NCBI GenBank assembly: GCA_020722015.1
Contig: DYLQ01000014.1
Span: 1-42,838 of the forward strand
Reading direction: 5' to 3'
Length of the DNA: 42,838 nt
DNA from: Thermotoga sp.
GTDB taxonomy: Bacteria; Thermotogota; Thermotogae; Mesoaciditogales; Mesoaciditogaceae
Part shown: positions 26,211 through 28,169 of the stretch, one piece after another
How the letters are laid out: every line of letters starts with the position of its first letter
Position numbering within the stretch: position 1 is the first letter of the stretch
The notes under the pieces: generated by a model
Told to the model about the DNA's origin: nothing
The model's input: the letters and a program-made list of their open reading frames with translations, nothing else
Database searches by the model: none
Position numbers and translations under genes: made by a program

Positions 26211-26238
26211 CATCAGAGGCGCTCATGCGCCTCTGATG
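26211..26238. terminator. Convergent terminator hairpin
   Basis: CATCAGAGGCGC, loop TCAT, GCGCCTCTGATG: a perfect 12-bp stem. It covers the trpB stop codon (TGA at 26225-26223). T-rich sequence follows on the minus strand; the plus side is weaker. Confidence 0.8.
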
Positions 26239-27500
26239 TATGAATTTAAATCGAGTAATCCGTGACCGCTGAAATTGAAAACTATGACCTTCTTTTCTCC
26301 CGTTTCACTACATGCTTTTGCATATCTCACAACTCCGGCGATGGCATGGCTTGTTTCAGGAGCGGGAATTATGCCTTCGCTCAACGAAAACAGTCTTGTC
26401 GATTCAAATGCTTCTTCTTGAGAAATGGCAATAGCCTTCATGTACCCTTCTTTTACAAGTCGACTTATTATCGGTGAAGCACCGTGGTAACGTAATCCAC
26501 CAGCGTAAATTGGGGGTGGAATGAATTCAGATCCTAACGTGTACATTTTCAACATTGGGGTAAGATGAGCCGTATCCCCATAATCGTATTTGTACTCTCC
26601 CTTTGTGAAAGAAGGACATTCGGTAGGTTCGCATGCCACTATCTCAAGTGATTCTTTTTTCATCTTCAACGGCATAAATGGCAAAGTAAAGCCGCCAAAG
26701 TTTGAACCACCTCCAAAACATCCTATGAGTACATCTGGTTCTTCTCCGGCAATTTCCATTTGTTTTTTGGTTTCCTGGCCTATTACCGTTTGATGAAGCA
26801 GCACGTGATCAAGCACGCTACCAAGAGAATAATGTGTTTTCTCCTTCGAAAGGGCATACTCGATAGCCTCACTTATTGCCATTCCAAGTGAACCTGTCGA
26901 GTTGGGAGTAACTTCAAGTATTTTCTTACCGTAATTGGTGAAATCGCTTGGGCTGGGATGAATTTTACCGTTAAAAAGGTTGACCATGTGCTTTCGTGCC
27001 GGTTTTTGTTCAAAACTGATTTTGACCATAAAAACATTGATGTCAAGTTTGAAATACGCTCCTGCAAATGCCAAAGCACTTCCCCATTGTCCTGCCCCTG
27101 TTTCCGTTGAGATCTTGGTCGTTCCTTCTTCAAGGTTGAAATACGCTTGTGCAAGGGCAGTGTTGAGTTTATGACTTCCGGTAGGACTGACGCTTTCGTT
27201 CTTGTAATAAATATGAGCGGGAGTCTTCAATGCTTTTTCAAGTCCGAAGGCTCTTATAAGCGGCGTAGGCCTGTAAAGTGCATAAGCTTCGCGGACTTTT
27301 TGCGGTATTTGAATATCCCTTTCTTTTGTTGCTTCCTGCATGATGAGTGCTTTGGGGAAAAGCAGCTCTAATTTTGAAGGATCGATGGGTTTCATCGTTT
27401 GAGGATCAAGTGGTGGATCCATGTCGAATGGCAGATCCGCTTTGACATTGTACCAGTACCTCGGTATATCTTCTCCCTTTAAATTTATGAACCTTTCCAT
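26223..27500 (-). CDS. trpB2: Tryptophan synthase beta chain, TrpB2 type
   Basis: The 425-residue PLP enzyme joins indole and serine to make tryptophan. It is the TrpB2 kind: a long N-terminus (GEDIPRYWYNVKADLPFDMD), PLP lysine Lys111 in SPTGSHKLNTALAQAY, TETGAGQWGSALAFAG, the phosphate loop GCFGGGSNFGG, and EGIIPAPETSHAIAG. TrpB2 proteins typically work without TrpA, and none is nearby. ATG 27500 follows GGGAGGA, which displaces an in-frame start six codons upstream. Expression is probably controlled by the tryptophan attenuator just upstream. Confidence 0.95.
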   Translation of the reverse strand: MERFINLKGEDIPRYWYNVKADLPFDMDPPLDPQTMKPIDPSKLELLFPKALIMQEATKERDIQIPQKVREAYALYRPTPLIRAFGLEKALKTPAHIYYKNESVSPTGSHKLNTALAQAYFNLEEGTTKISTETGAGQWGSALAFAGAYFKLDINVFMVKISFEQKPARKHMVNLFNGKIHPSPSDFTNYGKKILEVTPNSTGSLGMAISEAIEYALSKEKTHYSLGSVLDHVLLHQTVIGQETKKQMEIAGEEPDVLIGCFGGGSNFGGFTLPFMPLKMKKESLEIVACEPTECPSFTKGEYKYDYGDTAHLTPMLKMYTLGSEFIPPPIYAGGLRYHGASPIISRLVKEGYMKAIAISQEEAFESTRLFSLSEGIIPAPETSHAIAGVVRYAKACSETGEKKVIVFNFSGHGLLDLNSYIRGA

Positions 27501-27525
27501 GCAAATTCCTCCCTTCAAAATGAAA

Positions 27526-27554
27526 ATCGGGGATCTTTTCTAAAGATCCCCGAT
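27526..27554 (-). terminator. trp attenuator terminator
   Basis: Minus strand ATCGGGGATCTTT pairs with AAAGATCCCCGAT around a 3-base loop, followed by TTTTCATTTT, 26 bases before the trpB2 ATG. It is the intrinsic terminator of the trp leader. Confidence 0.92.
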
Positions 27555-27595
27555 GCTGAATACTTTATGGCAAAAAGCACACTACCCTTTCAGCA

Positions 27596-27658
27596 TCAGG
27601 GTTTGTGCCACCACCAGTTATTCTGAATTTTAAGACTCGATGTTCTTAAATCACACAT
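27596..27658 (-). CDS. trpL: trp leader peptide
   Basis: This 20-residue ORF begins MCDLRTSSLK and contains NNWWWHKP just before its TGA: three consecutive Trp codons. The ATG at 27658 follows AAGGTGG (27669-27663). The stop codon lies inside segment 2 of the attenuator, as expected. It is a regulatory peptide whose translation reports charged tRNA-Trp. Confidence 0.9.
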   Translation of the reverse strand: MCDLRTSSLKIQNNWWWHKP

Positions 27659-27675
27659 TTTACCACCTTGTAAGA

Positions 27676-27704
27676 AGTTTAGCACAAAATTACAAGTATG
27701 TCAA
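27676..27704 (-). promoter_or_regulatory. trp leader promoter
   Basis: TTGACA (27704-27699), 17 bases, TAAACT (27681-27676). It lies just past the dgkA stop, so trpB2 is an independent unit. Confidence 0.8.
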
Positions 27705-27725: not shown

Positions 27726-28169
27726 TTAACTTTTCTTATCTTTAATGAAAATGGATATCAGGAAAACAAAAAAAAGATAAGCAAAGAGCACTATACTTGC
27801 GTAAATAGACAGATCAAATCCAAATCTCTTGCCAAATATTATGATGGCTACCGTTATTGCAAATATCGATGCAGTCAAAACACCACCTGCGGCCATGTCT
27901 TTCATGTGTTTAACCGATTCATGGTACTGTGGATTAACAAAATCAAGAAATTCTTCAAAGAAAGAATTAAAAATCTCAGAAACAAGGACAAGCGTTATGG
28001 CAAGAAAAATCCAAAGAAATTCATCTACCTCAAGTCTTAAAAATAAAGAAACAACTACAACTGCACCGGCCGTTGCAAAATGTATCTTCATGTTACGTTG
28101 GGTTTTTAACACATGACTTATGCCATTGAACGCGTATTTAAAACTGCTAATCAGACTTCTTCTTTTCAT
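27726..28169 (-). CDS. dgkA: Diacylglycerol/undecaprenol kinase (DgkA family)
   Basis: This 147-residue integral membrane kinase phosphorylates diacylglycerol or, in Gram-positive-type relatives, undecaprenol. The signature is visible as VSEIFNSFFEEFLDFV followed by VKHMKDMAAGGVLTAS, with the conserved Glu, Asn, Lys and Asp. Hydrophobic helices at ~32-50, 52-70, 95-112 and 118-142 give the usual bundle. It overlaps korC by 4 bases and ends the tsaE-lon-engB-korB-korC-dgkA string. Substrate is not decided by sequence. Confidence 0.9.
   Translation of the reverse strand: MKRRSLISSFKYAFNGISHVLKTQRNMKIHFATAGAVVVVSLFLRLEVDEFLWIFLAITLVLVSEIFNSFFEEFLDFVNPQYHESVKHMKDMAAGGVLTASIFAITVAIIIFGKRFGFDLSIYASIVLFAYLFFVFLISIFIKDKKS

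Follow-up and report, generated by a model that had tools for sequence, protein, structure and literature searches.

What controls a TrpB2 gene that stands alone, and what does that control say about the job of the enzyme? The role of stand-alone TrpB2 has been debated: serine deaminase activity was predicted but proved poor (PMC1854888), and indole salvage is the other idea. The question arises at a trpB2 gene (26223-27500, minus strand) in the stretch of DNA analysed here, the window, which is 42.8 kb (42,838 nucleotides) long and in which an earlier note, written from the letters alone, had described a classical tryptophan-codon attenuator in front of the gene.

The product of trpB2, a protein of 425 residues, is a TrpB-like PLP enzyme, and its identification as TrpB2 holds: it matches the profiles NF009057 (676 bits, cut-off 366) and TIGR01415 (634 bits, cut-off 518.9), and its score with the TrpB1 model lies far under the cut-off of that model. 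The catalytic Lys111 (K111) and the PLP motif GGGSN are invariant across the TrpB2 proteins of the family, and among solved structures the closest chains are 6hul, 4qys and 6hte. Judged by the nearest named relatives of the protein (87% identical), Athalassotoga saccharophila NAS-01 and a metagenome-assembled genome labelled Mesoaciditoga, the genome of the window is an Athalassotoga (Mesoaciditogaceae, Thermotogota), as the phylum named in the earlier note would have it. Elsewhere in the window, at 2263-2502 on the minus strand, lies a match to a group II intron domain (RF02005, 154 bits).

Anatomy of the leader and a predicted switch

All elements described here lie on the minus strand, between the upstream gene and the ATG of trpB2 at 27500, which is preceded by the Shine-Dalgarno sequence GGGAGG (27513-27508). 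The sigma-70-type promoter, TTGACA-17-TAAACT with a TG preceding the second hexamer (27676-27704), matches the consensus, fits in position and has similar elements in relatives; a consensus scan over 350 bp found one promoter against 0.9 expected, which is not more than chance. The leader open reading frame, MCDLRTSSLKIQNNWWWHKP, has 20 codons (27596-27658), from the ATG at 27658 to the TGA stop at 27598-27596, with the Shine-Dalgarno sequence AAGGTGGT just 5' of it. Its putative sensor is a run of three consecutive Trp codons (TGG TGG TGG, 27608-27616), the only WWW run in the six frames of the window.

Arm 2 (CCCTGATGCTGAA, 27589-27601) begins at position +7 past the last Trp codon and forms the 5' half of the antiterminator, of which arm 3 (TTCAGCATCGGGG, 27548-27560) forms the 3' half; the two pair, 27601-27589 with 27560-27548, over 13 bp including one G-U. 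The intrinsic terminator (27526-27554), a hairpin of 13 bp with a loop of 3 and a folding energy of -19.2 kcal/mol, is followed by the U tract TTTCATTTT (27517-27525), and the terminator scan found one such element against 0.2 expected, more than chance. Seven nucleotides of arm 3 also belong to the 5' arm of the terminator, and by this overlap the 2:3 and 3:4 helices are mutually exclusive. The promoter, the leader and both 13-bp helices thus lie where the earlier note had placed them. Folding, one of the checks that it had proposed, adds an element absent from its list, a 1:2 (protector or pause) hairpin (27567-27614), which belongs to the minimum-energy fold of the leader and is an alternative to the antiterminator. 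This hairpin joins the last part of the Trp run, and the nucleotides following it, to sequence 3' of arm 2; four compensated pairs are found in it among seven Athalassotoga leaders. The features of a ribosome-mediated attenuator that can be read from DNA, i.e., an open reading frame with a codon run, exclusive helices, a 1:2 hairpin and suitable placement of the codons, are therefore all found in the window.

We propose that this region is a ribosome-mediated transcription attenuator that senses charged tRNA-Trp, and assign this reading a probability of about 0.92. From the anatomy given here and the conservation, covariation and gene content described below, we infer stalling, termination and a response to tryptophan in the following way. 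Transcription would start near 27669, and a ribosome would translate the 20-codon leader. When Trp-tRNA is scarce, the ribosome would stall on the WWW run with its leading edge about where arm 2 begins, and arm 2 would pair with arm 3, blocking the terminator so that trpB2 is transcribed. When Trp-tRNA is plentiful, the ribosome would reach the stop codon inside arm 2 and cover that arm, and the 3:4 terminator would form and end transcription near 27520. If no ribosome is present, the 1:2 hairpin would sequester arm 2, and termination would again be favoured. When the first Trp codon occupies the A site, the leading edge of the ribosome lies ~10 nt past that codon. Applied to the window, where arm 2 spans +7 to +19 after the WWW run and the stop codon ends at +12, a stall on the first Trp codon would leave arm 2 (from +7) free.

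Conservation and covariation of the trpB2 leader

Within the Mesoaciditogaceae, the WWW leader, terminator and antiterminator are present at nine of nine trpB2 loci with readable upstream DNA. The gene neighbourhood differs between genera and the attenuator stays; outside Athalassotoga, the leader lies directly behind a tRNA-Val(GAC) gene at five of six loci. At L026, L028, L029, L033 and L014, in the sister genera, the tRNA-Val(GAC) gene and the trpB2 attenuator seem to share a promoter. One Athalassotoga (G003) has lost trpB2 together with its leader by deletion, and two short gene remnants are left there, flanked by the genes that also flank the locus in the window (L108 4026-4238, G003:C65).

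The earlier note had proposed to look for Trp codons and compensatory pairing in the leaders of trpB2 orthologs, and both are found. Among 103 Thermotogota genomes searched, 68 trpB2 loci have readable upstream DNA (the nine of the Mesoaciditogaceae included), and 57 of these carry a WWW leader, with WYWW at one more; shuffled upstream sequences yield a WWW leader in 9 of 12,000 cases. The trpB2 attenuator is thus nearly phylum-wide and not peculiar to one genome. Ten trpB2 loci are without the leader: seven in one Thermotoga-type genus (G090-G096), one in its neighbour G089, and two in genomes of family f9. Its absence from eight Thermotoga-type and two f9 genomes means that the leader is not indispensable, and also that early work on T. 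maritima would have missed it.

The antiterminator was compared in 61 leaders, comprising the 57 of trpB2 and four of Athalassotoga trp operons. In these leaders, arm 2 starts 3-8 nt past the final Trp codon and forms 8-16 base pairs with arm 3 (median 13), a pairing that is kept despite changed sequence. A MAFFT alignment of the 13 leaders of the family put arm 2 in the wrong place between genera, and covariation was instead counted on the pairing registers, together with a swap control. Columns +7 to +16 each hold two to six canonical pair types and are 94-100% canonical over 52 distinct arm combinations, counts that lean towards structure because the register was picked to maximise pairing. 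The swap control addresses this bias: under the same search, the mean pairing energy is -25 kcal/mol for cognate arms versus -12.8 kcal/mol for swaps between families, and 47 of the 61 leaders pair better with their own arm 3 than with any from another family. The swap test also included ten trp-operon leaders, from families f6 and f7, whose geometry differs and whose pairing is mostly poor by that measure. In addition, the part of arm 3 that is common to the terminator covaries with arm 2 as well as with arm 4. Some families have longer leaders, in which the stop codon lies past arm 2, and the strict footprint rule for the stop holds in only 39 of the 61; in these longer leaders, the outcome may depend on how translation across arm 2 is timed relative to transcription.

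A reading without regulation would make the hairpin, a good intrinsic terminator, the end of the upstream gene, which stops at 27726, and the small open reading frame a product of chance, leaving trpB2 unregulated. However, in eight families trpB2 is preceded by a WWW run at the fixed distance from arm 2, even where another gene (tRNA-Val) lies upstream; shuffles almost never produce the run, and arms 2 and 3 change together. Exceedingly improbable in our estimate, this reading is already ruled out by the conservation, unless the 57 loci were artefacts. The covariation also bears on a proposal in which the terminated leader RNA, or the peptide, works in trans and attenuation in cis is secondary. 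The Sinorhizobium meliloti trp leader is reported to have trans roles of this kind (PMC7298713); here, the leader sequence is free to vary between families, the cis pairing is kept and no target is indicated, and we consider action in trans extremely unlikely. Anatomy and conservation agree on the classical Trp-codon attenuator that the earlier note had named.

The tryptophan pathway and the role of TrpB2

The earlier note had also described a lone TrpB2 and deduced from it a probable role in tryptophan or indole salvage. The gene does stand alone, but the pathway does not, since a complete trpDCFBAEG operon lies on another contig of the same genome, and the deduction does not follow for this genome. 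The operon has its own leader, MVSFLNGIFENNNWWWYRTRC, with a WWW run and with arms and terminator nearly the same as those of trpB2, and homologous attenuators are also found on the trp operons of three congeners. A full trp operon with a homologous WWW attenuator places trpB2 in a Trp regulon, and because of the homologous copy TrpB2 and the trpDCFBAEG enzymes should rise together upon tryptophan shortage. In the genome of the window, TrpB2 is most readily understood as a second beta enzyme under shared regulation.

The two attenuators of Athalassotoga are closely related. That of trpB2 is 73-86% identical over 84 nt to those of the trp operons of the genus, and 57-66% identical to the trpB2 attenuators of sister genera. 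In G007, of a sister genus, the trp-operon leader has arms of the Athalassotoga type and the trpB2 leader does not. The simplest reading of these sequences would be that the trpB2 attenuator of Athalassotoga was copied from, or homogenised with, that of the trp operon. WWW leaders also occur on trp operons elsewhere, in nine of nine examined in family f7 and in single genomes of f6 and f8.

For the idea of salvage, the relatives are more informative. We sought trpA and trpC in all 103 Thermotogota genomes. At 51 of the 68 readable trpB2 loci, the genome has no trpA above cut-off and trpC is absent as well; some genomes are incomplete, so that an isolated absence may reflect a gap in the assembly, but whole genera show the pattern and several of the genomes are rated 99% complete. 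The WWW leader is present in 48 of these 51, and in 9 of the 17 trpB2 genomes with trpA. Having neither trpA nor trpC, a cell could make tryptophan via TrpB2 only if indole came from outside; from this gene content together with the switch we infer that indole salvage is likely in these relatives, where the same switch would control the formation of tryptophan from outside indole. The role proposed in the earlier note thus gains indirect support in relatives. A switch that responds to Trp charging supports tryptophan synthesis as the probable job of stand-alone TrpB2, and its retention in 48 of 51 genomes without trpA and trpC argues that TrpB2 makes tryptophan, most simply from outside indole. 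If this is true, it is genomic evidence on a debated role.

Related leaders and known systems

The scaffold is not confined to Trp genes. A covariance model built from the seven Athalassotoga leaders finds, beyond the known sites, a similar scaffold with Tyr codons before DAHP synthase, MRTFTVENYYYYGRTRFVVCDL in the genome of the window (leader ENYYYYGRTRF, G000:C36:26995-27132, L221). Paralogous DAHP synthase scaffolds in Mesoaciditogaceae relatives (L201-L205, L209, L215, L220 and L225) hold runs of Tyr or of mixed Tyr, Trp and Phe codons, and in other Thermotogota families short aromatic-rich leaders (YYYFWF, YFWFYY, YFYYY and YYY) stand before DAHP synthase (L240-L248, L251 and L253 in f10 and f11, including the Thermotoga-type genus without the trpB2 leader; L255, L256 and L259). 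The codon run thus follows the pathway, and the Tyr-codon paralogue shows how such a switch can be re-specified. A literature search for leader attenuation by Tyr codons found no report.

Weak matches of the covariance model at C54, C25 and C88 of the same genome are not leaders. Two further loci were seen. At L210 (G003:C7:26880-27026), a gene that by sequence inspection resembles an AsnRS-type asparagine synthetase is preceded by a leader in which five Asn codons are consecutive and a terminator overlaps; L219/L229 (G006:C13:4402-4501) has the WWW leader MNYTTRTASKSIVENSMNWWWS before a permease-like protein, by inspection an amino acid permease and a candidate tryptophan transporter under the same control.

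The paralogues bear on what the leader might sense. TrpB2 uses indole and the peptide has Trp residues, and a nascent chain that senses free tryptophan or indole in the exit tunnel (TnaC-like arrest), rather than the charging of tRNA-Trp, would make sense on these grounds. However, the leader residues outside the WWW run lack the conservation between families expected of an arrest peptide, the codons lie directly next to arm 2, where tRNA sensing requires them, and the paralogues have YYYY in place of WWW; we regard TnaC-like sensing as very improbable and retain the sensing of charged tRNA-Trp. Taking the leaders together, we lean towards a broader account: leader-peptide attenuation would be an old, phylum-wide control of aromatic amino acid supply in the Thermotogota, with one scaffold copied between genes and given new sensor codons (Trp at trpB2 and at the trp operon, Tyr or a mixture of aromatic ones at DAHP synthase), and TrpB2 would be a regulated indole-salvage switch where trpA and trpC have been lost.

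Trp-rich leaders are also present at a few of the closest TrpB2 loci outside the Thermotogota, of Actinobacteria type (L039, L042 and L044; WWWRARRGGACPP) and of Deltaproteobacteria (L032 and L102), and possibly at L043 and L058. The terminator scan found none at L032, and at L044, L043 and L102 the arm pairing was not distinguishable from that of shuffles; we treat these loci as leads.

Rfam searches of the window at gathering and permissive thresholds gave no relevant match, and the Trp_leader family (RF00513) matches neither in the window nor, at E up to 10, in the attenuator region. Literature searches, which covered papers readable without subscription, found no report of attenuators of Thermotogota trpB2, of stand-alone TrpB2 or throughout the Thermotogota. 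A 2004 survey of amino-acid attenuators is said to mention Thermotogales in its abstract.

In sum, the mechanism is classical, its breadth is unusual, and the target gene and phylum-wide spread are unreported in the searchable literature. Trp attenuators are known in proteobacteria. Like the E. coli trpL attenuator (RF00513), the locus combines a short leader with consecutive Trp codons, exclusive 1:2, 2:3 and 3:4 helices, a U tract and a Trp gene downstream; unlike trpL, to which it has no sequence similarity, it has three Trp codons, belongs to the Thermotogota and serves trpB2 alone as well as the trp operon. The uORFC-8-2 of Rhodobacterales (PMC8632094) likewise places tandem sensor codons in a short open reading frame that controls a gene for the matching amino acid, but with Cys codons, before cysS and in alphaproteobacteria. 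Trp attenuators have also been predicted in Actinobacteria, where Corynebacterium diphtheriae has them in front of trpB1EDGC and of trpB2A (PMC1262725). These share leaders with double or triple UGG codons, terminator and antiterminator, and two attenuated operons per genome. They differ in phylum and sequence, and in C. diphtheriae trpA follows trpB2 in the operon, whereas here the TrpB2-family gene stands alone. An Rfam-based survey found amino-acid attenuators to be mainly gammaproteobacterial and suggested an origin there with very few transfers (PMC3766115); against this, leader-peptide attenuation is here a general trait of the Thermotogota, a phylum that branches deeply and is mostly thermophilic.
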